64,000 bases of DNA from Verrucomicrobiaceae bacterium (GTDB lineage: Bacteria > Verrucomicrobiota > Verrucomicrobiia > Verrucomicrobiales > Verrucomicrobiaceae): positions 1 to 64,000 of the forward strand of contig CANGYJ010000002.1 in NCBI GenBank assembly GCA_947458455.1, read 5' to 3'. The notes under the pieces are model-generated. The model was not told the origin of the DNA. It did not search any database and was given only the letters and a program-made list of their open reading frames with translations. Positions 32,829-48,060 of the stretch are shown piece by piece. Made by a program: the position numbers and the translations under genes. The stretch's first letter is position 1. Each line of letters begins with the position of its first letter.

Positions 32829-32945
32829 TAAATGACGAATGACGAATTCCCGAATGACGAAAGAAATCCGAAGCTCGAATGACGAAACTGGCCTGCGGGA
32901 AACCTCATGCCTTCGTCCTTCGTCCTTCTGCATTCGTCATTTTCT
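32829..32945. repeat. ATGACGAA repeats between sigma and kinase genes
   Basis: GAATGACGAA or a one-base variant occurs four times between 32831 and 32887, and the inverted form ATTCGTCATT is at 32932-32941. The left copy AATGACGAAT and the right copy ATTCGTCATT can pair over 10 bp. The pattern is a short scattered repeat, not a CRISPR array. It also supplies a false early ATG for the kinase gene (32907). Confidence 0.5.
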
Positions 32946-32951
32946 CGCTTC

Positions 32952-35900
32952 ATGAGCTCCCCGGTCTCCATCTGCGATGTGTGCGGCACACCGCTCGAAA
33001 AACGCGGTTCAGGCTTCTTTTGCCCGGCATGCATGCTCCGTGGTCTGATGGAAGAGCCCGATCCTGAGGCGGAGACGCAAATCACGGAGGCTCCGGCGCT
33101 GGGAGACATGCCGCGGGTGCCGAGGCATTCGATGATCGAAAAGATCGGCGAGGGCGGTTTCGCGAATGTTTACCGGGCGCTGCAACGCGAGCCGGTGAAG
33201 CGCGAGGTGGCCATCAAGGTGCTGAAGCCACAAATCGCCAGCTACCATGTGCTGGCACGTTTTGAAACGGAACGCCAAACACTGGCGCGGATGGAGCATC
33301 CAGGTATCGCCCGGCTTTGGGATAGCGGCGTGACGATGCACGGCCAGCCGTTCTTTGCCATGGAACTGGTGCGTGGCGAGCCGGTGACGGCTTACTGCGA
33401 GAACAACCATCTCACGCTCGATGAGAGGCTCGAAATCTTCCGCTCCATCTGCGAGGCGGTGCAGCATGCGCATGAAAAAGGAGTGCTGCATCGCGATTTG
33501 AAGCCGTCGAACATTCTCGTGGCCGGCGCAGGCTCCGAGCGGGTGGTGAAGATCATTGATTTCGGCATCGCGAAGGCTTTGGAGGTTTCGCCGGAAGCGG
33601 AGGATGCGGATGAGACGGGTGCGATGACCTCGATTCATCAGGCCGTGGGCACGCCCGGCTACATGAGCCCAGAGCAGAGTGCCTGGGGCGCTCATCATGT
33701 GGATGCTCGCTCGGATCTCTATGCGCTGGGCGTGGTGCTTTACGAGCTGCTCACGGGCTCGACGCCGCTGCAAATCGAGCGAAAGGCGAATGATGAAGCT
33801 CGCCAGTGGCCGGTGGCAAAGCATGTCACGCCGCCATCGCTGCTGCCGAGGTCCATTTTGCTCACGAAGACGGATAAACGGGATCTCGATGCCATCGTGC
33901 TGAAGGCGCTGGAGATGGATTCCACGCGTCGTTACGCCAGCGCGGCAGCGTTTGCGGATGACATTCTGCGGCACCTGCATGATGAGCCGGTGCTCGCGGG
34001 TGAGAGGTCGTGGACGTATGTGATGGAGAAATTCACGCGGCGGCATCTGCCCTTTGTGGTGAGTGCCGGTGTGGCAGGGCTGGCGGTGGTGGGTGGTCTC
34101 ACGGCGAGCACGATCTTGTATCTCAAGGAGCAAAAAGCCCGCTCGAACGCCGAGGATCGCCAGCTCGTGATCGAAGCCCGTGAAGCGGAGCTGCGGCGTA
34201 CCCTGAGCCGGGCGGATTACGCGGCGGCGCAGCAGTTTAAAGCGGCGGGTGATTCCCAAAGCGCCGTGGCCTGTCTCGTGCGTGCTTTGCGGCAAGATTC
34301 ATCGTTCAAAGCGGCCGCGGCAGATCTTCAGATGATGCTGCTTCAAGACGATACGCCGCAGCCGGTGGAGACAGTGATCCCTGTCGATCCGGCGTGGGGT
34401 GAGGTACAGGAGAATCTGGGGGCTGTCTCAGCGGGTGGGCATGTGCTGGCGGCGGTGTTTTTGAAGGATGGGAAGCAGCGGGCCATGCTTTTTCGACACG
34501 CGAAAGGCATATGGAATCGCCGTGAGCTGCCGCTGAAGACCCGGCTGCTGGCGCTGGAGCTTTCATCGAGTGGAAACTTCCTCGTGATGGCTGAGGAAGG
34601 CGGTGAGGTGCGGCTTTTGCGCCCCGAGGAGCCGTCCTTTGAGAAGAAGTGGACGCCTCCCGCCACGGTGACGGCCGTGACGATCACCACGAGCAGTGAG
34701 CTGGCGGCGGTGGGCTGTGCGGATGGTTCCGTGTGGATCATCGGCGCATCGGACGACAGGTCACCGAAGCGTGTGGGCGCGGTCTCTGGCGCGGTGACCT
34801 GCTTGCTGATCCAAGGCCAGGAACGTCTCATCGTGGCCGGAAGCAAGGAGGGGGAGGTGCGAAGACTTTCGGTGTTCAATCCGAATGACCAACGCCTGCT
34901 GGTGAAAATGCCTGGCGAAGTGACCACGGTGAGCAGTTCCGGCAACGCGATGCCGGCCGTGGGTGATTCACTGGGGAATGTGGCCTGCCTTTCCGACAAC
35001 GACTTGATGCTGCCCATCACGCATCTACATGACAGCGCCATCACCGCCGTGGCTCTGGCTTCCGGGCGGGGTAATCCGATGATGCTGACGGCCGGCGGGG
35101 CGCGTGACCTGCGTGTGAAGTGGTTTGATTTGAAGACTCGCGTCGAACTAAAAGCGCCGGTGGAATCCGCCGGCGCGGTGCGGCACATCGCCATGACACG
35201 CAGCGGGGACAGCGCGTTGATCGTGAATGCGGATGCCTCCGTGCGCATGTGGCGGCAGGCGGGCGAGGGAGCGATCACGGTGCGCAAGCCGCAGCGTGCG
35301 CGTTACATCGCCATGAGCACGCAAGGTCGTGCGATGGCCGTGCGGCGTGACCTTGGCCGTGGACTGGAGGTGCTCACCCTGCCGCAGGACACCATGTTTG
35401 GCATCGTGCTTGATCATGGCGGGCCGATTACACCGCCTGGGCTGCGCGACCGTGCCTGCGCGACCTTTTGCCAGGATGGCAGGACGCTCGTGGAATCGAA
35501 CGAACTCGGCGTGGCGGGGCTGTGGGACAGCACGAAGGCCACGCTGCTCGATTCACGTCGCTGGAACCAGGCCGCGATGGCGCTCGGCCCTGGCACAGGA
35601 GATTCGATCCGTGCCGTGCTGGTCGATGGATCGCTGGTGGAGGTTCCCATGGATGGAAGCGCTTTGCGCACGCTCGTTCCCGCGTCCTCGGCCCATGCTT
35701 GGACGCTGGCCTCGATCTCACCGGATGGCCGTGGAGCCGCGTGGGCCACCTCGTCGCCTGATTTGCAGCAGCAGTGTCATCTGCGTGTGTGGTGGGAGGG
35801 TGAGAAAGAGGCGCATGAAATGACGGCGGAACGCCTCTCCGCCATCGCCATGCATGCCGGGACGCGACGCCTGGCCCTCGGTCTAGGTAACGGCCATGTG

Positions 35901-36650
35901 CGGGTGATTCAGGGCCAGGAAGATCCGCGAGGTATCGCCGTGCCGCTGCATCAAAGCGCGATCACCTCGCTGGCCCTCAGCCCGGACGGCCTTGCCTTGA
36001 TTACTGGGTCCACGGATCACACCGTGGCCATCTGGAAGGCGCTCTCGCTGGCTCCATTGATCGACCCGCTGCGTCTCGATGATGCTGTGGAGCGTGTGAT
36101 CTTCAGCGGAGATGGAAGGCGCTTTGCCTGCTGCACCCATCAGCAGGTGATTGTGGGTGATTTTGAGGCACGTGGATTTTTGGGCGAGGCCTTTACGCTG
36201 CCCAACATCGGCCGCACGCTCACGTTGAACCAGGATGGCAGCCGCGTGGCCTTTTCCATCGGCAGTGGAAGCATCTTCGTGCATGACATTGCCCCCGCCC
36301 TTTCCGCGCCGGTGCCGGAGTGGTTTCTCAAACTGGCGGAGACCTATGTCTCACGCCGCATGACGGCACAAGGCACCGTGGAGATGCTGGATCATCCAGG
36401 CCTGGAGGCCTTGAAGGAACTCGTGCCGCCAAAGATCGACGATGAGTGGAGCCGGTTTGCCAGCTGGATGTTCACCCACACGGGCCTACGAACGATCACC
36501 CCGTGGTCTTCGCTAACTCTCGATGCTTACATGAACGAAGTGGCGAAGCTTCCACTCACCACCCGGAACATCGAGCGCCGTCGTCTGCGCACCTTGCAGT
36601 ATCACGAGCGTGAGATGGGTGCTCCGTCGGTCGGTGAGCCAGCACCTTGA
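32952..36650 (+). CDS. Zinc-ribbon Ser/Thr protein kinase with WD40-like C-terminus
   Basis: A 1232-aa protein. Residues 8-27 form a zinc ribbon (CDVC...CPAC). The kinase domain (about 58-345) is complete: glycine loop GEGGFANVYR, Lys in AIKVLK, catalytic HRDLKPSN, DFG in IIDFGIAKA, and the activation segment GTPGYMSPEQ. A membrane helix follows at about 367-390 and then a coiled region. From about residue 470 onwards beta-propeller-type WD40 repeats fill the C-terminal part (LALSPDGLALITGSTDHTVAIWKAL is the clearest). So the kinase faces the cytoplasm and the propeller the periplasm. Such kinases are abundant in Planctomycetes and Verrucomicrobia and likely regulate the neighbouring ECF sigma factor. 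The ATG at 32952 is chosen because the zinc ribbon directly follows it. Confidence 0.88.
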   Translation: MSSPVSICDVCGTPLEKRGSGFFCPACMLRGLMEEPDPEAETQITEAPALGDMPRVPRHSMIEKIGEGGFANVYRALQREPVKREVAIKVLKPQIASYHVLARFETERQTLARMEHPGIARLWDSGVTMHGQPFFAMELVRGEPVTAYCENNHLTLDERLEIFRSICEAVQHAHEKGVLHRDLKPSNILVAGAGSERVVKIIDFGIAKALEVSPEAEDADETGAMTSIHQAVGTPGYMSPEQSAWGAHHVDARSDLYALGVVLYELLTGSTPLQIERKANDEARQWPVAKHVTPPSLLPRSILLTKTDKRDLDAIVLKALEMDSTRRYASAAAFADDILRHLHDEPVLAGERSWTYVMEKFTRRHLPFVVSAGVAGLAVVGGLTASTILYLKEQKARSNAEDRQLVIEAREAELRRTLSRADYAAAQQFKAAGDSQSAVACLVRALRQDSSFKAAAADLQMMLLQDDTPQPVETVIPVDPAWGEVQENLGAVSAGGHVLAAVFLKDGKQRAMLFRHAKGIWNRRELPLKTRLLALELSSSGNFLVMAEEGGEVRLLRPEEPSFEKKWTPPATVTAVTITTSSELAAVGCADGSVWIIGASDDRSPKRVGAVSGAVTCLLIQGQERLIVAGSKEGEVRRLSVFNPNDQRLLVKMPGEVTTVSSSGNAMPAVGDSLGNVACLSDNDLMLPITHLHDSAITAVALASGRGNPMMLTAGGARDLRVKWFDLKTRVELKAPVESAGAVRHIAMTRSGDSALIVNADASVRMWRQAGEGAITVRKPQRARYIAMSTQGRAMAVRRDLGRGLEVLTLPQDTMFGIVLDHGGPITPPGLRDRACATFCQDGRTLVESNELGVAGLWDSTKATLLDSRRWNQAAMALGPGTGDSIRAVLVDGSLVEVPMDGSALRTLVPASSAHAWTLASISPDGRGAAWATSSPDLQQQCHLRVWWEGEKEAHEMTAERLSAIAMHAGTRRLALGLGNGHVRVIQGQEDPRGIAVPLHQSAITSLALSPDGLALITGSTDHTVAIWKALSLAPLIDPLRLDDAVERVIFSGDGRRFACCTHQQVIVGDFEARGFLGEAFTLPNIGRTLTLNQDGSRVAFSIGSGSIFVHDIAPALSAPVPEWFLKLAETYVSRRMTAQGTVEMLDHPGLEALKELVPPKIDDEWSRFASWMFTHTGLRTITPWSSLTLDAYMNEVAKLPLTTRNIERRRLRTLQYHEREMGAPSVGEPAP

Positions 36651-37162: not shown

Positions 37163-38803
37163 ATGTTCGTCTTCATGCGCTGGATCATCCGCCTTCTTTT
37201 TCTCGCCGCCCTTGTGATGGGTGTGATGTGGTTTCATCACGTTCGCACGCATCGTCCCTCGCGGGTGGAGGAGGCCACGAAGGCCGGCATTCTGCTGCTC
37301 GGCAATGGTTCCGAGCCAGCCACGCTCGATCCGCATCTCGCCAGCGGCCAGCCGGAGCATTTGATCTTCCATTCGATCTTCGAGGGACTCGTCGCACCGG
37401 GCACGGACGATCCCGATGCCGACGGCCCTGGCGCGGCGGTCTCCTGGACGCAGGAAAATTTCACCACCTGGACTTTCAAGCTCCAGCCGAAGGGCAAATG
37501 GAGCGATGGCACGCCGCTGACGGCCCACGACTTCGCGCACGCTTACCAGCGCATCCTCACCGCGAAGCTCGGTGCGGATTACGCCAACATGCTCTACCCG
37601 CTTTTGAACGCCGAGGAGTATCACACCGGCAAAATCAGCGATTTCAGCCAGGTGGGCGTGAAGGTGATCGACGATTACACCCTGCGCCTCACGCTCAAAG
37701 GTCCCGCACCCTATCTCCCGAGCATGCTGAAGCACTACTCGTGGTTCCCCGTGCCAAAGCACGCCATCGAGCAGCACGGCACGATGGACCAGCGAAACAC
37801 CAAATGGACGCGTCCCGGCCATCTCGTGGGCAATGGAGCCTTCAAACTCAAAAGCTGGCGGGTGAACCAAAACATCGAGGTGGAGCGCAATCCGCACTAC
37901 TGGGATGCTGCTACCGTGAAGCTCAACGGCATCGTCTTTGTGCCCATCAGCAGCCCACCCACGGAAGAGCGAGCTTTTCTCGACGGCCAGATCCACATGA
38001 CGCTGGAGGCACCGCTCTCGAAGATCCCCGGTTACATCGCCAGCAAGTCACCGCTATTTCATGCCGACCCGCTGCTGAGCGTTTACTTCTACCGCTGCAA
38101 CGTCACAAAGAAGCCCTTCAACGATGTCCGCGTCCGCAAAGCCCTCGCGCTGGCGATTGATCGGGAGAGCATCGTGAAAAATGTGCTTCGCGGCGGGCAA
38201 AAACCTGCCACCGGCCTCACCCCGCCTGGTACCGTGAAGGACTATCAAGCGCCCGACATCATGAAGTTCGATCCCGCCGAGGCCCGCAGACTCCTCGCTG
38301 AGGCTGGCTATCCTGATGGCAAAGGTTTCCCGCCCTTCGAGATCCTCATCAACACCAGCGAATCGCACCGCACGCTGGCCGAGACCATCCAGGCCATGTG
38401 GAAGCAGCACCTCCAAATCCCTGCGGGCGTGTTGAATCAAGATTGGGGCGTCTATCTCGAATCCCAGCGGGCGCTGAAATTCGACGTGTGCCGTGCCGGC
38501 TGGGTGGGTGATTACCTTGATCCCACCACCTTTCTCACCCTCTGGCAGTCCAGCGATGGCAACAACAACACCGGCTGGAGCAACCCCGCCTACGACGCCC
38601 TCATCAAGCAAAGCTTCCTCGAAGGCGATCCCGCCAAACGCCTCGCTATCCTGAAACAAGCCGAGACCCTCATGCTCAACGAGGCCCCCGTCCTGCCTGT
38701 CTATTGGTATGTGCATCCCCACCTGATGCGCCCCGAGGTCAAAAACATGCGACCCTCGCTGCTGGAGCATCGCTGCTACAAAGTCGTCGAGTTGAAGCCG
38801 TGA
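37163..38803 (+). CDS. OppA-family peptide-binding protein
   Basis: A 546-aa protein of the ABC solute-binding family 5. It has an N-terminal membrane helix (about residues 6-24) rather than a lipobox, so it is anchored or exported. Family features include GSEPATLDPHLASG, WSDGTPLTAHDFAHAYQRIL and VRKALALAIDRESIV, the latter typical of peptide and nickel binding proteins. It captures short peptides or similar ligands in the periplasm. No permease or ATPase gene is adjacent, so it may serve a transporter elsewhere, or be an orphan. It lies 156 nt before ftsQ and is separated from it by a palindrome. Confidence 0.88.
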   Translation: MFVFMRWIIRLLFLAALVMGVMWFHHVRTHRPSRVEEATKAGILLLGNGSEPATLDPHLASGQPEHLIFHSIFEGLVAPGTDDPDADGPGAAVSWTQENFTTWTFKLQPKGKWSDGTPLTAHDFAHAYQRILTAKLGADYANMLYPLLNAEEYHTGKISDFSQVGVKVIDDYTLRLTLKGPAPYLPSMLKHYSWFPVPKHAIEQHGTMDQRNTKWTRPGHLVGNGAFKLKSWRVNQNIEVERNPHYWDAATVKLNGIVFVPISSPPTEERAFLDGQIHMTLEAPLSKIPGYIASKSPLFHADPLLSVYFYRCNVTKKPFNDVRVRKALALAIDRESIVKNVLRGGQKPATGLTPPGTVKDYQAPDIMKFDPAEARRLLAEAGYPDGKGFPPFEILINTSESHRTLAETIQAMWKQHLQIPAGVLNQDWGVYLESQRALKFDVCRAGWVGDYLDPTTFLTLWQSSDGNNNTGWSNPAYDALIKQSFLEGDPAKRLAILKQAETLMLNEAPVLPVYWYVHPHLMRPEVKNMRPSLLEHRCYKVVELKP

Positions 38804-38959: not shown

Positions 38960-39910
38960 ATGCCCTCTCCCCAGAAAGGCTCGAAATCTCCTGCTCGCCG
39001 CCCCTCGCGTTCACGCAAGGCAGCCGTGCCGCATGTGATCGATTACGAGCCGGAATCCCCGGTCATCCGCCAGCAGGAGGCGGAAATGGCACGGCGCAAA
39101 GGTTACCGAAATGCCCTCTGGCTCATCATTGCCATCACCGTCGTCGCCTTGGGCAAGCTCGTCTGGGAAGAGGCCTTCGAGAAAAACGCCCGTTTCCTAC
39201 TCAAAGCGCTCGATGTGCAGACCAGCGGCCCGCTTTCCGTGCCAAAACTCGTCGGTGCCACCGCCCTCACGCTCGATACCAATTTGCTCACGCTCAATCT
39301 CGGTGAGGTGCGCAGCCGTCTCGAACGCTTGCCGCAGGTCAAAGGCGTGCACATCCAGCGGGATTACAACGGCAGCCTCACCATCAAAGTGCAGCAGCGT
39401 TTCCCCGTGGCCTGGCTGGAATGTGCGAAGCAGAAATATTACGCCCCGCTCAGCGGCACCGGCTGCCTGATCGATGCCGAAGGCGTGCCGATGCCTTGTG
39501 AGGTCGTTACGAAGGAATACCTAGCCCTTCCGGTCATTTATTTCGATGCCGTGAGCAGGATCGAGCATGGCAAAAAGCTCTCCGATCCGCTGCTGCACAC
39601 CGCTTTGGAACTGGCCAAGGAGCTCAATTCCCGCGCCCAGGCCCCGGCTGAGATTGCGAGGAAGCTCACCATCCCGAATGCGTGGTCCATCGAGGCTCAT
39701 TACGCCACCGCCGAGTCCGAGCCAAAGGTCATCACCTTCGGCGTCGATGATGTGGAGATGCAGCTCGAACGTTACGACCGCCTCATGAAGGAGGCCCGCG
39801 CCCGCCAGTGGAAGATCGCCACGCTCCATTTCATCCCAGAGGGCAACACGCCCGCCACCTTCCATGGCACGCCCGATGTCAGCGGCCTCACCCTGGCTGC
39901 AAACCGCTAA
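38960..39910 (+). CDS. ftsQ: Cell division protein FtsQ
   Basis: A 316-aa bitopic membrane protein of the divisome that links FtsK-type and FtsB/L proteins. It has a basic cytoplasmic tail (1-48), a membrane helix (about 49-67, ALWLIIAITVVALGKLVW), a POTRA domain (about 80-150; the segment LPQVKGVHIQRDYNGSLTIKVQQRFPVAWLE is typical) and a beta domain. Length and gene order (ftsQ-ftsA-ftsZ) support the call. The sequence is divergent, as is usual for FtsQ. The start at 38960 is 24 nt after an AT-rich palindrome. Confidence 0.85.
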   Translation: MPSPQKGSKSPARRPSRSRKAAVPHVIDYEPESPVIRQQEAEMARRKGYRNALWLIIAITVVALGKLVWEEAFEKNARFLLKALDVQTSGPLSVPKLVGATALTLDTNLLTLNLGEVRSRLERLPQVKGVHIQRDYNGSLTIKVQQRFPVAWLECAKQKYYAPLSGTGCLIDAEGVPMPCEVVTKEYLALPVIYFDAVSRIEHGKKLSDPLLHTALELAKELNSRAQAPAEIARKLTIPNAWSIEAHYATAESEPKVITFGVDDVEMQLERYDRLMKEARARQWKIATLHFIPEGNTPATFHGTPDVSGLTLAANR

Positions 39911-39932: not shown

Positions 39933-41150
39933 ATGGCCAAAAGCACCATCTACGCCGGACTCGAAATCGGAACGCACAAAATCTGCGTCGTCGTGGGTGA
40001 GGCAAAGCGTGACGGAGCCATCAAAATCCTCGGTGTGGGTCAGGCACCTTCCCGTGGCGTGCGCAAAGGCGAGATTGTCGATTTTGAAACCGTGCAGACC
40101 TGCCTCAACGACGCTCTCGTGCGTGCCGAAGACCGCAGTGACGTGATGATCCGCAATGTCTTCCTCGGCGTCAGCGGCGCTCACATTCAATCGCTGAACA
40201 ATCGCGGCTGCCACCGCCTCCCCGAAGATCAGGTGGAGATCACCGAAGACGATGTCGAAGAGGCCAAAGAGATCGCCCGCAACGTCAGCATCCCGCAGCA
40301 GAACGTTTTTCTCCACAGCGTCACGCGACAGTACATCGTCGATGGCGTCGAAGGCGTGCGCCAGCCCATCGGCCGTGAGGGCCGCATGCTGGAGGCCGAT
40401 TACCACATCATCCACGGCATCCGTGGCCGCATTCAGAATGCCATCCGCTGCGTGCGTGAGATCCCGCTCGAAGTCGAAGACGTCGTCTTCAATCCCGTCG
40501 CTGCGGCACAGGTCGTGCTCACACGAGAGGCCAAAACCCAAGGAGCCCTCATGCTCGATTTCGGCGCTGGAACCTGTGACTACGTTTTGTATGATGACGG
40601 CATGATCACCGCCTCCGGCTGTGTGCCGCTCGGTGGCGATCACATCACGAACGACGTCGCCATGGCCCTCGAAATCCCCAATGGCCGTGCGGAGAAGCTC
40701 AAAATCGAAGAAGGCAGCACCGACTACCAAGACGTGCCCGAAGGTGAACTGCTCAACATTGAAGACGAAACCGGCCTCGTGCTCGGCGAGGTGCCCCGAG
40801 CCTTCCTCAACGAGGTCATGTATCTCCGCACCAAAGAGATCATGGAGACCGTCAAGGCAGCGGTGGAGCCGCATCTTCACCGTCTCGGTGCGGGCGTGTT
40901 TTTGACTGGCGGCGTTAGCTTGATGAAAGGCATCGAAAACGTCGCGCAGGAGGTCTTTGGCCGCAAAGTCACCCGTGCAGGGTCCGCGCCGGTGAGCGGC
41001 ATCTCCTCCACCTTTGAAAACCCGCAGTTCTCCGCGCCCATCGGGCTCATTCGTTACGCACAGATTCTCGATGCTGAAAAACCTTACCTCTCACCGCTGA
41101 AAAGGCTTGGCAGACGCATGCAAGAGCTGCTTTCATCTTTCGCGCTTTGA
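39933..41150 (+). CDS. ftsA: Cell division protein FtsA
   Basis: A 405-aa actin-like protein that tethers FtsZ polymers to the membrane. Actin-type phosphate loops are visible: GLEIGTHKICVVVGE at the N-terminus and LDFGAGTCDYVLYDDG near residue 210, and FLTGGVSLMKGIENVAQ as the adenosine-binding region. The SHS2 (1C) subdomain is present between about 84 and 160 (ITEDDVEEAKEIA). The C-terminal amphipathic helix (KRLGRRMQELLSSFAL) is the membrane-targeting sequence. It follows ftsQ by 22 nt and precedes ftsZ by 56 nt. Confidence 0.95.
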   Translation: MAKSTIYAGLEIGTHKICVVVGEAKRDGAIKILGVGQAPSRGVRKGEIVDFETVQTCLNDALVRAEDRSDVMIRNVFLGVSGAHIQSLNNRGCHRLPEDQVEITEDDVEEAKEIARNVSIPQQNVFLHSVTRQYIVDGVEGVRQPIGREGRMLEADYHIIHGIRGRIQNAIRCVREIPLEVEDVVFNPVAAAQVVLTREAKTQGALMLDFGAGTCDYVLYDDGMITASGCVPLGGDHITNDVAMALEIPNGRAEKLKIEEGSTDYQDVPEGELLNIEDETGLVLGEVPRAFLNEVMYLRTKEIMETVKAAVEPHLHRLGAGVFLTGGVSLMKGIENVAQEVFGRKVTRAGSAPVSGISSTFENPQFSAPIGLIRYAQILDAEKPYLSPLKRLGRRMQELLSSFAL

Positions 41151-41206: not shown

Positions 41207-42871
41207 ATGGTCGAATATCAACGCACCCTGGCCGCCGGCATTCCTGCTCAAGGCGCCCCCCGCATCTGCATCGTCGGCGTCGGCGGTGCCGGCTCGAACG
41301 TCATTGATCGCATCACGCTGGATCGCATCGTCGAGGCCACACTCGTCTGCATGCACACCGATGTGCGCGTGCTCGGCCATGCCATGGCGCCGTGCAAAGT
41401 GCAGCTCGGCGTCGAGCTCATGAAAGGCATCGGTGCCGGTGGTGATCCCGATCTCGGCCGCGAAGCTGCTCTCTACTCCCGCGAGCAGATCCGTCAGTCC
41501 CTCGATGGGCATGACATCATCTTCATCAGCGCCGGCCTTGGTGGCGGCACTGGCAGCGGTGCGGCACCTGTCGTCGCCGAAATCGCGAAGAACACCGGTG
41601 CCCTCGTCATCGTCGTGGCCACCATGCCATTCAGCTTTGAAGGCCGCCGCCGCATCGGCCAGGCGGAGGAATCGCTCGAACTCCTCCAGAAGCGCTGCGA
41701 TGCGCTCATCCTCTTTGAAAACAACCGCATGGGTGAGCTCATCCTCCCCAAAGACGGCATTCAAAAAGCCTTCACCCAGGCTGACCAGCTCATCGCCCAG
41801 TCCCTGCGGGCTGTTTCCACCATCACCGCCACGCCAGGCCTCGTGAAACTCGGCCTCGATGATCTCACCGCGGCGCTGCGCAGCGCGAATGGTCGTTGCC
41901 TCTTCGGTTTTGGCGAAGCTCGCGGTCAGAATCGCGGTGCGGAAGCTGTCAAAAAAGCGCTCAAGAGCCCGCTCATCGATCAGGGCCGCCTGCTTTACCA
42001 CACCGAGACCTTGCTCGTGCATGTGGCCGGTGGCGAATCGCTCACACTCGTCGAAGTCGAGGGCATCATGAAGCAGCTCGGCAAAAACGTGCCGGACCAA
42101 ACGCACATCCTGTTTGGCCTCGCCATTGATCCGAAGCTCGGTGACTCCGTCGCCGTCACGCTCATCAGCTCGCTCAGCCTTGCTCAACTCACCGCGCATT
42201 CCACCGCCGCACCGCCCGCCGAGATGATGGCTCCGCGTGCCGAAGCTGCGCCAGCGCCAGTGGCTGCCCCGGCTCCCAAACGAGAGCCAAAGGTCCGCAG
42301 CATGCCACCGCCGCTGCCCAAGCCCGTCGAGGAAGATTTCTTCTTCAAAGCCGAGGAAATCATCCCTGTGGCCCCCGCCGCCATTCACGCTCCCGAGCCT
42401 GAACCTGCCTTCGAACCCGAAGCGGAGGCCGAAGAAGCCTTTGACGAGCCGGAGGCTGCCGTCGAAGAAGAAATGGAGGAACTCATCAGCACCCCGGTGC
42501 ATACCCCTGAGCCTGAAACCGCTCGGCTCCCCGTCCGCACGCCCGTCGCTCGTGAACTCGCGGAGGTCGCTCGCGAGCCCAAGATTCTGGCCTCCGTCGT
42601 CGCTCGCGGTGTCACTCTTCAGACCGAGCCACCGCCCGTCGCCGAGGACGACATGATCGTCTTTGAAAGCGAAGAGCCCGCCCCCGCTCCAAGACCGGCC
42701 CCATCAACCACCATCACCCCGCGTCGCACCATCGCCATCGAGCAGCCTTCCCTCGGCCTCGCCAGCGAAGAAGACCGCGGCCGCTTCAAAGACACGGAGC
42801 CCTCCATGGTCGAAGGCGAAGACCTCGACGTGCCCACCTGGAAGCGCCTCAAGATGAAGCTGCGCCGGTAG
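41207..42871 (+). CDS. ftsZ: Cell division GTPase FtsZ, divergent
   Basis: A 554-aa tubulin-like GTPase, longer than the usual 380-400 aa. The nucleotide-binding core is intact ([27 protein letters not shown] at about residues 107-122). The T7 synergy loop is altered: where E. coli has MNVDFADV, here VKLGLDDL, so Asn207 is Lys and Asp209 is Gly, while Asp212 is kept. The C-terminal half (about 325-540) is a long low-complexity linker rich in Pro, Glu and Ala. The conserved C-terminal peptide that binds FtsA can still be seen ([10 protein letters not shown], with a basic tail). Since FtsZ assembly normally activates hydrolysis through both Asp residues, the loop change suggests altered GTPase dynamics. 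The start ATG 41207 follows an AGGAG far upstream. Confidence 0.93.
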
Positions 42872-43049: not shown

Positions 43050-43988
43050 ATGACTCAGCTCGATCAGCTCAAGAAGCACACCGTCGTCGTCGCCGATACT
43101 GGCGATTTCGAGGCGATGAAGGCCTACAAGCCTCAGGACGCCACCACGAATCCCTCCCTCATCCTCCAGGCCGCCTCGAAGCCGGAGTACAAGGCCATTT
43201 TTGACCAAGCTGTCGCCGATGGCAAAGCCGGTGGCGTCGATGCGGTCATGGACAAACTCGTCGTGGCCTTCGGCCTCGAAATCCTCAAGATCGTGCCTGG
43301 CCGCGTCTCCACGGAAGTCGATGCCCGCCTTTCCTTCGATACCGAAGCCAATCTCACGAAGGCCCGCCAGATCATCGGCATGTATGAAAAGGCCGGCATT
43401 TCCCGCGAGCGCATCCTCATCAAGATCGCCTCCACCTGGGAAGGCATCAAAGCGGCCGAGGTGCTGCAAAAGGAAGGCATCAACTGCAATCTCACCCTCC
43501 TCTTCAGCCTCGCCCAGGCCGCTGCCTGCGCCGAGGGCGGCATCAAGCTCATCTCCCCCTTCGTGGGCCGCATTCTCGATTGGTTCAAGAAGAGCACCGG
43601 CAAGGATTACGGCGCGGCGGAAGATCCCGGCGTGCAGTCCGTGACGCAGATCTACAACTACTACAAGCACTTCGGCTACACCACCGAGGTCATGGGGGCC
43701 AGCTTCCGCAACAAGGGCGAGATCACCGAGCTCTGCGGTTGCGACCTCCTCACCATCAGCCCCGGCCTTCTCGGCGAGCTCGCTGCCAGCGAGGACGCCA
43801 TCACGCCGAAGCTGAATGCCGCCAACGCCAAGTCCCTCACGATGGAGCGCATCGGCAGCGATGAAAAAACCTTCCGCTGGTTGCTCAACGAAGACGCCAT
43901 GGCCACCGAAAAGACCGCCGAAGGCATCCGCAACTTCGCCAAGGACATCGTGAAGCTCGAAACCATGGTCAAAGCCGCTCTCGGCTGA
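43050..43988 (+). CDS. tal: Transaldolase
   Basis: A 312-aa enzyme of the TalB type that moves dihydroxyacetone units between sugar phosphates in the pentose phosphate pathway. The opening ([11 protein letters not shown]), [10 protein letters not shown], the Schiff-base Lys in [11 protein letters not shown], and [20 protein letters not shown] are all present. Length is typical (about 315 aa). The ATG at 43050 gives the normal start ([11 protein letters not shown]); the upstream frame passes through a repeat-like intergenic sequence. It is a separate unit, 178 nt after ftsZ and ending with a terminator. Confidence 0.95.
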
Positions 43989-44575: not shown

Positions 44576-45505
44576 TCACTCCCCGCCTTCCGGCAGGACA
44601 TCGACGGCGACTTGGAGGCGTTGTTCGCCGGCACCGATGGTGACGCCGCGGAGGGGGCTGACGTCGCTGAAGTCGCGGCCCCAGGCGACGGTGATGTGGC
44701 GTTCGCCGGGAAGGATGTTGTTGGTGGGATCGGCGTCCATCCAGCCGATGCCATCGCCGCAATAGACGCTCACCCAGGCATGCGAGGCATCGGCACCGAC
44801 GAGCTTCACCTGACCGGGCGGCGGCATGGTTTCGAGGTAGCCGCTGACGTAGCGGGCAGGCAGGCCGATGGATCGCAAACAGGCGATCATGACCTGCGCG
44901 AAGTCCTGGCAGACGCCGCGGCGTTTGGCGAGCACCTGCACCACGGGGGTGGTGTGATCGGTGGCGGCGGGATCAAAGACAAAATCCTCGTGGATGCGGC
45001 GGTTCAAATCGCACACGGCTTCGAGGATGGGGCGTTTGGCCGGAAAGGAAGGTCGCGCATAGTCGGCGAAGGCGGGGCCGACGGGGATCAAGGCGGAGGG
45101 AAAGGCCAGTTCACCGGCGAGGAGCAGCGGGCGGGCACCATCGCCCCGGCAGCCATCGCGAATTTTTTCCCAGGGCAGCGTGGAGGAGGGATCGGGAGGC
45201 TCGATGCGGTTCACCTCGATGAGGCTGCGGGAGATGACTTCGAGCTTTTGATGCGAGCCGGCGATCTCAAAATACACGGTGGCATTGCCGAAGTAGTCCG
45301 CCCGCTTGGCCCGCTCCACTGGCTCCGGGCGGATGTGCAGCTCGTGCCACGGGCATTCCTGCTGCGGCAGGGCACGCGGCTCCAGCCGGGCGGTGTAATG
45401 GCCCACCGTCACCGGGCTTTCGTAGGTGTAGGTGGTGCGGTGGATGATGTTGTAGCGCATCGTGATGTTCGCGGTTCTCAGTTCACCGTTCCCGGCAGCG
45501 TTCAT
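44576..45505 (-). CDS. Transglutaminase-like domain protein
   Basis: A 309-aa protein of the bacterial transglutaminase-like family: an N-terminal beta domain (RYNIIHRTTYTYESPVTVGH) followed by the papain-like core. Catalytic Cys is in KRRGVCQDFAQV, His in ASHAWVSVY and Asp in MDADPTNN. Its start overlaps the stop codon of the ATP-grasp gene by ATGA (45502-45505), so the two are translationally coupled. ATG 45460, with the typical RYNIIHRT start, is a shorter alternative. In other bacteria this protein, a circularly permuted ATP-grasp and an alpha-E protein occur together and are predicted to make or modify peptides, but the product is not known. Confidence 0.85.
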   Translation of the reverse strand: MNAAGNGELRTANITMRYNIIHRTTYTYESPVTVGHYTARLEPRALPQQECPWHELHIRPEPVERAKRADYFGNATVYFEIAGSHQKLEVISRSLIEVNRIEPPDPSSTLPWEKIRDGCRGDGARPLLLAGELAFPSALIPVGPAFADYARPSFPAKRPILEAVCDLNRRIHEDFVFDPAATDHTTPVVQVLAKRRGVCQDFAQVMIACLRSIGLPARYVSGYLETMPPPGQVKLVGADASHAWVSVYCGDGIGWMDADPTNNILPGERHITVAWGRDFSDVSPLRGVTIGAGEQRLQVAVDVLPEGGE

Positions 45506-48060
45506 TGCCTGCCGCGCACGGTCGCGTGGCTGAAATAATGCTCGGTGATGACGTCGGAGAGGGTTTCGATGCCTTTGGCCATTTTTTGGCAGAAGTGGGG
45601 GGTGACCTCAAAAACGAGGTCGCCAGCGGTGGCGAGCTTTTCGAGGTTCAAAGCCATCAAATCGGAGAGGAGTCCGTCCGTCTGCTCACGCTCGCGGTTG
45701 CCGGTGTCCTGGGTGGGATCATGCGGGAGCTTGGCCACGAGGCGGTCGAGAGAATGGAGCTGAAAGCTGACGCTGCGCGGGTTTCCAGGCTCCAGGAGGA
45801 GCAAATCGAGCGTCTGGATGAGCATGGGCCGGGCAAAGTGCAGGCGGCGGTAGGTCATGGTGCTGTCACCGATCTCCAGCAGCGGGCCGAGCACGATCTC
45901 ATCGGTGCGTGCGTGTGTGGTGCCCACGTCGAGGAGGCTGAGCATCACATCCGCCCGCTCGATGCGGCGGCCGATTTCGAGGAAACGCCAGCCGTGACCG
46001 CGAGTCATGTTTTCCTGCTCCATGCCGCTGAAGGCGGCGAGATCGAGCACGAGGGTGTCGAGGGATTCGATGGCGCGGGTGACGGAAAAGCCGCTGGCGG
46101 GCATGCGGGCATCCCGCTCGATGCGGTTGAAGAGCCGCCAGGTATCATCGGAGAGGCGATCACGGGCGGCGGCGGCATTGTAGCGCACGCGGCTCATGAG
46201 ATCCGGCACGCTGCCATCCCGCTTGGGATCTTGAAGAAGGGCGGAGAGCTGCTCACGGAGATCGCGGGCACCGGCGGGCATAAACCCGAGCTTCGTCATG
46301 AGGACGATGCAGGCGGCGACCTCGCGATTGCTCTCGGTGGAGCCTTCCCCAGAGAAGCGATGCAAGGTCGTGCGCAGCACGCGAACGGTCTGCTCCAGGC
46401 GCTCGGCATAGCGGCCGAGCCAGTACAAATGATCTGCCACACGGCTGGGCACGCCACCGGGTGGCCGTGCCGGGCGGATGACGATGGGCGCGGGATGCAG
46501 GCGCACATTTTCGCTCGGCGCATCGCCGAGCACCCAGGTGTCCTTGCTGATGCCACCGCTGCGCATGGTGACGAGCCAGCGGTGTGGCTCCGGGCTCACG
46601 CGGGTGAGACCGCCAGGCATCGTTTCAAAGGTCTCTCCTTTGGCGATGGTGTAGGCACGCCAGACGAGGGAACGCGGCTCCATCTTGCCCTGCACGAGCG
46701 TGGGCGTGGTGGAGAGCGGGAGGATCTCCTGCGCGATGTAATCATGCGGCGAGGCGCGGATGGTATCCAGGAGCCGTGCTTTTTGCTCCTTGTCCAAATC
46801 ACGCACAAAAACAGGATCGCGAGCGCCACGGACGAAGGCGGGCTTGATCACCCAGCGGTCAGGATCGCTCATGACGAGATCGAGCTCGCGTTTTTGACCG
46901 CACCACCACGTCGGCACGCAGGCCATTTTCAATTCCTCACCCAGCAGCTTGCGGCAGAGGCCGGGGAGGAAGGGATGCATGGCCGGCGACTCCACCACGC
47001 CGCAGCCGAGGCCGTTCGCGAGAGCCACACTGCCGCTGCGCCAGGCCTCGAGCAGGCCCGCAGTGCCCAGCATGGAGTCCGAGTTCAGTTCGAGTGGATC
47101 GACATAGACATCATCAATGTGCCGCAGCACCGCATCCACACGCCGCAGGCCTTCCAGCGTCTTCAGGAAGACACGCCGGTCACGCACGGTGAGATCGGCC
47201 CCTTCCACGAGCGGGAAGCCGAGGTAACGAGCCTGGAAGGCATGCTCGAAGTAGGTCTCATTGTAAGGCCCCGGCGTGAGCATGAGGCTGCCGGCCGTGC
47301 CACGACGGTTTGGCTGGAGACTGCGCAGCAGATCCCGTTTCAGGTCATACCAGGACTTCAGCCGCCGCACTTTCGAGGCATTGAATTCCTCCGCAAAGAC
47401 GCTCGCCAGGATGATGCGGTTTTCCAGCGTGTAACCCGCGCCGCTGGGCGCCTGCACGCGGTCCGCCAGCGCCATCCATTGCCCTTTGGGGCCACGCACG
47501 AGATCACAGCCGAAGCGGGTGGCGAATCGCCCGCCCGTTGGCAGCACGCCCACGACCGGGCGCAGGAAGCCGGGATTCGCATGCACGAGCGTGGATGGCA
47601 GCCAGCCCTCGCGGAGCAGCCGCTGCGGACCGTAAATGTCCGCGAGGATCACATTCATGAGCCGTGCCCGCTGATCGAGGCCCTCGGCGACCTTGGTCCA
47701 ATCATCCGCGCTGACGATGAACGGCAGCAGATCGAGCATCCACGGTCGGCTGGTGCCCAAAGCATCGTCGTAGATGTTGTACGTCACCCCGTGGTCACGC
47801 AGCAGACGCTGCACCGCCTCCGAGCGTGAGGCGAAGTCCTGCGGCCCACATTGCGCAAGGAAACTCCCAAACGTCTTCCAATGCGGCCGGAGCTGGCCGC
47901 GCTCATCCATCATCTCATCAAAGGCGGCGCTATCCGGCCGGTAGCCGGGCAGGAGGCGTTCGAGGGGAGAGGTTGGAGCTTCGGCGGTAAGCAAGGGAAT
48001 ACTTTCATAGCAGCTTTGAAGCCGATGTGGAGAGTGATTTATACCGACCAAGGCCTTCAA
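45502..48060 (-). CDS. Circularly permuted ATP-grasp and alpha-E fusion protein
   Basis: Up to 852 aa. The N-terminal part (about 60-480) is the circularly permuted type-2 ATP-grasp domain (YDEMM-type opening AAFDEMMDERGQLRPHW; LNSDSMLGTAGLLEAWRSG; DRWVIKPAFVRGARDPVFVRD). The C-terminal part (about 545-850) is the alpha-E helical domain (VADHLYWLGRYAERLEQTVRVLR). The two are often separate genes, but here they are one polypeptide. They are predicted to ligate amino acids or peptides, in partnership with the downstream transglutaminase. No in-frame ATG exists at the 5' end: the start is a TTG at 48060 or 47994, and the latter lies closer to conserved sequence. The divergent SGNH gene begins 50 nt away. 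Confidence 0.8.
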   Translation of the reverse strand: MKALVGINHSPHRLQSCYESIPLLTAEAPTSPLERLLPGYRPDSAAFDEMMDERGQLRPHWKTFGSFLAQCGPQDFASRSEAVQRLLRDHGVTYNIYDDALGTSRPWMLDLLPFIVSADDWTKVAEGLDQRARLMNVILADIYGPQRLLREGWLPSTLVHANPGFLRPVVGVLPTGGRFATRFGCDLVRGPKGQWMALADRVQAPSGAGYTLENRIILASVFAEEFNASKVRRLKSWYDLKRDLLRSLQPNRRGTAGSLMLTPGPYNETYFEHAFQARYLGFPLVEGADLTVRDRRVFLKTLEGLRRVDAVLRHIDDVYVDPLELNSDSMLGTAGLLEAWRSGSVALANGLGCGVVESPAMHPFLPGLCRKLLGEELKMACVPTWWCGQKRELDLVMSDPDRWVIKPAFVRGARDPVFVRDLDKEQKARLLDTIRASPHDYIAQEILPLSTTPTLVQGKMEPRSLVWRAYTIAKGETFETMPGGLTRVSPEPHRWLVTMRSGGISKDTWVLGDAPSENVRLHPAPIVIRPARPPGGVPSRVADHLYWLGRYAERLEQTVRVLRTTLHRFSGEGSTESNREVAACIVLMTKLGFMPAGARDLREQLSALLQDPKRDGSVPDLMSRVRYNAAAARDRLSDDTWRLFNRIERDARMPASGFSVTRAIESLDTLVLDLAAFSGMEQENMTRGHGWRFLEIGRRIERADVMLSLLDVGTTHARTDEIVLGPLLEIGDSTMTYRRLHFARPMLIQTLDLLLLEPGNPRSVSFQLHSLDRLVAKLPHDPTQDTGNREREQTDGLLSDLMALNLEKLATAGDLVFEVTPHFCQKMAKGIETLSDVITEHYFSHATVRGRQ

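Follow-up and report, generated by a model that had tools for sequence, protein, structure and literature searches.

The FtsZ protein encoded in the window (the whole 64,000-nucleotide stretch of Verrucomicrobiaceae DNA that was analysed) possesses a T7 loop which reads K-L-G-L-D-D, versus N-V-D-F-A-D in E. coli, and which retains D212 alone of the canonical N-x-D-x-x-D residues Asn207, Asp209 and Asp212 (residue numbers are those of E. coli FtsZ, NC_000913, which served as the alignment reference). As Gly209 is fixed in the window's family, which includes Verrucomicrobium spinosum (V. spinosum) with its reportedly essential ftsZ, the loop is likely to represent a variant catalytic site and not a broken protein. 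It is believed, with a probability of roughly 0.6, that this is a working, re-wired FtsZ which splits GTP by means of a single T7 carboxylate instead of a pair. The retention of GTPase activity and the one-acid chemistry are extrapolated from the residue pattern, its ancestry, the purifying selection and the independence from tubulins documented below, while residue roles and the essentiality of V. spinosum ftsZ are taken from the literature and not from our own data. The gene, its relevant parts and its upstream neighbours are located in the window as follows:

38960..39910, + strand: ftsQ (FtsQ-type POTRA domain)
39933..41150, + strand: ftsA (TIGR01174, 326.6 bits, cut-off 175.85)
41207..42871, + strand: ftsZ, 554 aa, comprising the GTPase domain (residues 19-177), the FtsZ C-terminal domain (residues 229-320), the linker and the C-terminal peptide
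41354..41368, + strand: T2 loop / H2 start, residues 50-54 (HTDVR); H50 corresponds to E. coli N43, D52 to D45 (kept) and R54 to Q47
41651..41653, + strand: R149, kept, corresponding to E. coli R142 and S. aureus R143 (the catalytic Arg according to PMC8936486)
41714..41722, + strand: residues 170-172 (FEN), corresponding to E. coli I163-P164-N165
41834..41866, + strand: T7 loop and H8 start, residues 210-220; K214 corresponds to E. coli N207, G216 to D209, D218 to A211 and D219 to D212
42188..42817, + strand: linker, low-complexity, Ala/Pro/Glu-rich, about 200 aa
42818..42868, + strand: C-terminal peptide

The ftsQ-ftsA-ftsZ gene order described in the initial annotation is borne out by domain and profile matches to the upstream genes, and 63 of the 64 family loci have an ftsA homologue ahead of ftsZ in the same orientation. 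The trio is flanked upstream by a gene for a family 5 solute-binding protein (PF00496; window 37163-38803) and downstream by a transaldolase gene (PF00923; window 43050-43988), without mur/ddl genes in these flanks. Elsewhere in the window, positions 32907-36650 encode a large Ser/Thr protein kinase whose C-terminal part carries WD40-type repeats, and positions 44576-48060 on the minus strand encode a circularly permuted ATP-grasp/Alpha-E protein, then a transglutaminase-like protein.

Judged from its sequence, the window ORF is the orthologous, single-copy FtsZ of the cell. It matches PF00091 (134.1 bits, cut-off 33) across residues 19-177 and PF12327 (68.6 bits, cut-off 27) across residues 229-320, and it is the sole FtsZ of its genome. 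The tubulin signature and the nucleotide contacts are present (LGGGTGS; FEG..R, with E138 and R142; N165), as are the P-loop-like T1/T4 signature GGGTGSG and D45. Identity as a bacterial tubulin (BtubA/B) was rejected in view of PF12327, a match to TIGR00065 (the NCBIfam ftsZ equivalog) that spans residues 17-325, and the location of the tubulin-type genes on another contig, C17, where two adjacent genes (78865-80959) score as tubulins and make the genome a btub-bearing member of the family. The TIGR00065 score of 282.8 bits is below the cut-off of 295.2, which counts against the one-acid reading, this cut-off being an annotation threshold and no biological criterion; among 30 genomes sampled from the order's other families 2 attain it, as do 25 of 141 of the class. 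The AlphaFold prediction of the core, based on a 61-row alignment, has a mean pLDDT of 84 and a pTM of 0.81, and it superposes on known FtsZ structures (for B. subtilis FtsZ 2rhl, VIA-align Z 42.5, rmsd 2.3 over 305 residues). A further point against the one-acid reading is that the predicted model is weakest at T7 (block means of 64-76 around residues 201-230), so that it does not settle the T7 geometry.

The E. coli segment PGLMNVDFADV aligns to the window T7 region without gaps, as had been claimed, and this alignment confirms the replacement of N207 by Lys and of D209 by Gly, with D212 alone remaining. Further substitutions had escaped the initial annotation, i.e., D211 (A in E. coli), Q47 to R, N43 to H and P164 to E. 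An Asp hidden by a misplaced gap was rejected: the same columns are ungapped against verrucomicrobial FtsZ proteins retaining N-x-D-x-x-D, which indicates that Asp209 is not concealed by an alignment slip. Sequencing error was likewise rejected, since 63 of the 64 readable family FtsZ carry Gly209 and the remaining one carries Ser. The suggestion that Asp209 might be present at a shifted position thus fails as regards an alignment shift, but holds to the extent that most Gly209 proteins have an acid two residues on (D211).

The family sample consists of 68 genomes, 67 of which gave a tubulin/FtsZ match, and the T7 loop was read in 64; those left out are G038 (FtsZ place unlisted), G052 (FtsZ cut before T7), and G056 and G057 (without an FtsZ match). 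Besides the Gly (63/64) or Ser (1/64) at position 209, these proteins invariably possess Asp at position 212 (64/64) and Arg at position 47 (64/64), with Lys (54/64) or Arg (10/64) at position 207, and Asp (54/64), Ala (7/64) or Ser (3/64) at position 211, V. spinosum being among the ten with Ala or Ser. All four glycine codons are used for Gly209 (GGC 35, GGT 13, GGG 9, GGA 6), while purifying selection on the family FtsZ is strong as gauged by codon substitution, with a median dN/dS of 0.127 across 536 family pairs (dS 0.1 to 1.2). Tubulin genes are present in 40 of the 64 genomes, absent from 23 and, by match counts, ambiguous in one (G043), and Gly/Ser209 occurs in all of them. Family-wide fixation, codon turnover, low dN/dS and its occurrence with and without tubulin genes indicate that this is an old change, maintained by selection and without a connection to tubulins.

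These data bear directly on the proposal that FtsZ has become a degenerate scaffold, part of whose work has been taken over by BtubA/B. The two tubulin genes in the window's genome are consistent with this proposal, as is the fast evolution reported for verrucomicrobial FtsZ: accelerated ftsZ evolution is mentioned in PMC2474590 for M. infernorum (data not shown there) and Prosthecobacter (citing others), and PMC9871819 places Verrucomicrobiota FtsZ among the most divergent. However, a decay of FtsZ tied to tubulins was rejected, as Gly/Ser209 is found equally in the 23 family members without and the 40 with tubulins; selection on the gene is strong; and V. spinosum counts as tubulin-free, yet its ftsZ is reported to be essential (PMC12283558). 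Such a pseudo-GTPase is therefore very improbable. The divergence of verrucomicrobial FtsZ was already known, and that of Prosthecobacter FtsZ is mentioned in the initial annotation; the T7 change is not a Prosthecobacter oddity, being fixed throughout the family and beyond.

The linker is indeed about 200 residues long, as described in the initial annotation, although its length is ordinary for the family and not special. The tail that follows the core measures 223 aa, which is short by family standards; tails of 208-428 aa are present in 61 of the 64 family FtsZ, two others are cut off where their contig stops and one (G063, 46 aa) terminates within its contig, and an unusual linker was rejected on these grounds. 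A C-terminal D-L-D-[VI]-P-T-W peptide is found in 55 of the 64 members.

Among FtsZ proteins of families f2-f6, which belong to the same order, 29 of 30 carry Gly209 and one carries Glu, with D/E212 and Arg47 in 29 of 30 each. A tree of 98 rows was constructed from rows thinned at 80% identity, with the T2, 162-166 and T7 columns removed and highly divergent class members (f12, f29, f41 and others, with scores under 255) excluded. Families f1-f6, f14, f18, f22, f27, f31, f40, f43 and f49, representing the Verrucomicrobiales and Chthoniobacter-like groups, form a 47-row clade on one branch (support 100/100) in which D209 is present in 0 of 47 rows and D/E212 in 46 of 47, the lone exception (L152) having E209 and Q212. 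A second clade (f13, f16, f42 and f45, with Opitutus terrae; branch 100/100) exhibits the opposite pattern, with D209 in 12/12 and an acid at 212 in 0/12; across all FtsZ read from these four families the figures are 26/26 and 0/26, position 212 being occupied by T, A, S, G or Q. The remaining 57 of the 116 thinned rows comprise 33 with both acids, 9 with only that at 209, 15 with only that at 212 and none with neither. In the set of 228 readable FtsZ, which is unthinned and rich in the window's family, and from which 7 further FtsZ with a gap at 209 or 212 were left uncounted, 44 have both acids, 45 only that at 209, 136 only that at 212 and three neither; all three are divergent, and the one-acid rule fails there.

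Gly209 was also found in 80 of 80 organism-labelled loci, a sample that is biased (one search pattern included F-[DE]-N) and overlaps the main genome set. The comparison outside Verrucomicrobiota consists of viral-collection FtsZ, E. coli, S. aureus and B. subtilis: both acids are present in 17/17 of the viral-collection proteins (IMG/VR loci L329-L345), which are few and near-alike, and S. aureus and B. subtilis FtsZ read NLDFAD in the alignment. The T7 loop is canonical in 16 of these 17 IMG/VR contigs.

Several members of the class are altered to a far greater extent. In f12, which includes M. infernorum and relatives (L189-L196 and L418), T7 is unalignable in 7 of 8 loci, and the tubulin signature reads LAGATGA in four f12 loci. 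In the f29 loci (L197-L200), GG[ED] replaces the GGGTG signature and positions 207-209 read K/R-I-T/N, without D209; in two of these loci (L199 and L200) neither 209 nor 212 is acidic. Genome G336 (f34) encodes two divergent FtsZ proteins, L203 and L204, on different contigs and with different T7 loops.

Named relatives illustrate both patterns. The T7 loop reads R-V-G-L-D-D, with one residue inserted before it and without D209, in the gut bacterium Akkermansia muciniphila, and N-L-D-F-A-G in O. terrae. The V. spinosum protein (f1) is 673 aa long from the first Met and its loop reads R-M-G-I-A-D; the same length of 673 aa is given for VerFtsZ in PMC1845146, where eight core positions are reported to be unlike those of all other phyla in that paper's alignment. 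According to PMC12283558, V. spinosum divides by binary fission, its ftsZ is essential by transposon sequencing, and the disordered C-terminal extension of its FtsZ tolerates very few insertions; the species is also amenable to targeted mutagenesis. The suggestion that the change might be common in active FtsZ proteins is thus correct in part, in that it is common in FtsZ that is essential in vivo, as in V. spinosum.

In filaments of S. aureus FtsZ, two residues of the top subunit's T7 loop, D210 and D213, are reported to hold the precatalytic water together with G72, D210 swinging round to place this water for attack. Through its side chain N208 touches D46 and Q48 and also coordinates K+, a bridge links R143 with D213, and Q48 (E. 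coli Q47) is the K+-locking Gln (PMC8936486). The K+ ligands, i.e., the side chain of N208 (N207 in Klebsiella), three backbone carbonyls and Q48, are described in PMC8936486 and PMC10333351, the Klebsiella filament map of the latter having the same ligands, the N207 side chain and three carbonyls among them. S. aureus mutants N208L, D210N, D213N, D46A and R143Q do not assemble, and mutation at the positions of N208, D210 and D213 is reported to abolish the in vivo function of E. coli FtsZ (PMC8936486). GTP hydrolysis by E. coli D212A is much slower (PMC4383033), while E. coli D209A forms aggregate-like structures in yeast (PMC3684127).

For the one-carboxylate FtsZ favoured here, it is proposed that D209 was lost at the base of the clade joining Verrucomicrobiales and the Chthoniobacter-like groups, and that the water would be held by the acid at 212 together with Arg142 and the T3 backbone, possibly assisted by D211 where this is present. 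The T2/T7 contact, formed in other FtsZ by N207, Q47, D45 and K+, would have been rebuilt with basic residues and re-wired on both sides, through Q47 to R and N43 to H in the bottom subunit and N207 to K/R in the top one. Polymerisation with GTP would most likely persist, as would hydrolysis, perhaps slowly. By analogy, the loss of assembly in each of S. aureus N208L, D210N and D213N (PMC8936486) argues against this reading, and essentiality is no proof of GTPase activity, as filaments could turn over otherwise.

It is a tentative possibility that not only was D209 lost, but the T7 K+ itself was replaced by basic side chains (R47 of the bottom subunit and K/R207 of the top one), yielding a K+-independent enzyme. 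An arginine finger takes the place of K+ in other GTPases. Both side-chain ligand positions are basic in 64/64 family members (R47 in 64; K207 in 54 and R207 in 10), and 41 of the clade's 42 Gly/Ser209 rows are basic at position 47 or 207, versus 21 of 54 Asp209 rows. However, shared ancestry could account for this association, as the coupling of 209 with 47, 164, 207 and 211 amounts to only four independent contrasts on the well-supported (starred) branches, and sign tests are therefore unable to reach 0.05. Basic residues at 47 and 207 are, moreover, uncoupled. N207 is kept in most f2 rows and Q47 in f14, f27 and f40, and Arg47 coexists with an intact N-x-D-x-x-D in f67.

The changes at positions 211 and 164 would find a different explanation if the D209 carboxylate had shifted to position 211 or, on the side of the nucleotide, to E/D164, leaving two acids and an unchanged chemistry. 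An acid occupies position 211 in 38 of 47 Gly/Ser209 tree rows versus 2 of 54 Asp209 rows, and position 164 in 42 of 47 versus 5 of 54; in most Gly209 FtsZ, an acid takes the place of Pro164. Such a relocation is nevertheless unlikely, given that Ala or Ser occupies position 211 in 10 of 64 family members, including V. spinosum with its essential FtsZ, and that D211 and an acid at 164 are both absent from L222 and L225, which are Gly209 cases outside the clade.

Returning to the one-carboxylate reading, its boldest extension would combine a rule that at least one T7 acid is kept, a different one of the two Asp, regarded as jointly indispensable, having disappeared in each of two large clades of the phylum, with the replacement of K+ by basic residues from two subunits in Verrucomicrobiales, resulting in a K+-independent, one-carboxylate GTPase that treadmills and brings about cell division; as a whole, this combination is doubtful.

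The absence of D209 from one group and of D212 from another group of the same phylum suggests that the textbook two-aspartate mechanism may not be universal in bacteria. Of the six residues in the 2022 structural mechanism, three (Q48, N208 and D210) are replaced throughout the window's family and D213 is replaced throughout a different clade. V. spinosum is reported to depend on a D210-less FtsZ in order to grow, and A. muciniphila also lacks D210, rendering the loss of a T7 Asp an unsafe sign of a non-functional FtsZ. In the literature searched, neither verrucomicrobial FtsZ proteins without a T7 Asp nor the loss of different ones by two clades was described, with Pilhofer 2007 and 2008 being outside its scope and prior mention possible, nor did an assay of a Gly209 FtsZ come to light. 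Which residue performs the chemistry of FtsZ, and how its GTPase sets filament turnover, can be tested with such natural proteins, not dead mutants.

Compared with the canonical FtsZ of E. coli, B. subtilis and S. aureus, the window protein shares the fold, the GTP pocket, D212, the FtsZ C-terminal domain, the type of C-terminal peptide (D-[IV]-P-x-[FW]) and the ftsQ-ftsA-ftsZ order, whereas it differs by N207 to K, D209 to G, A211 to D, Q47 to R, N43 to H and P164 to E, and by its linker of about 200 aa. The V. spinosum protein, a member of the same family, resembles it in the missing D209, R47, the long linker and an EDLDVPTW peptide, but has Arg207 and Ala211 where the window protein has Lys and Asp, and no tubulin genes were counted in its genome. 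The Opitutus terrae-type FtsZ (f13, f16, f42 and f45) is similar in that one T7 acid is gone and the rest is well kept, yet here D209 is kept and D212 is lost. Finally, the structures of S. aureus T7 mutants and D210N (3wgk, 3wgl and 7oja), which are among the 50 best fold matches, likewise lack a T7 Asp, but are engineered; D210N is reported not to assemble (PMC8936486), whereas the natural Gly209 FtsZ proteins possess many accompanying changes.
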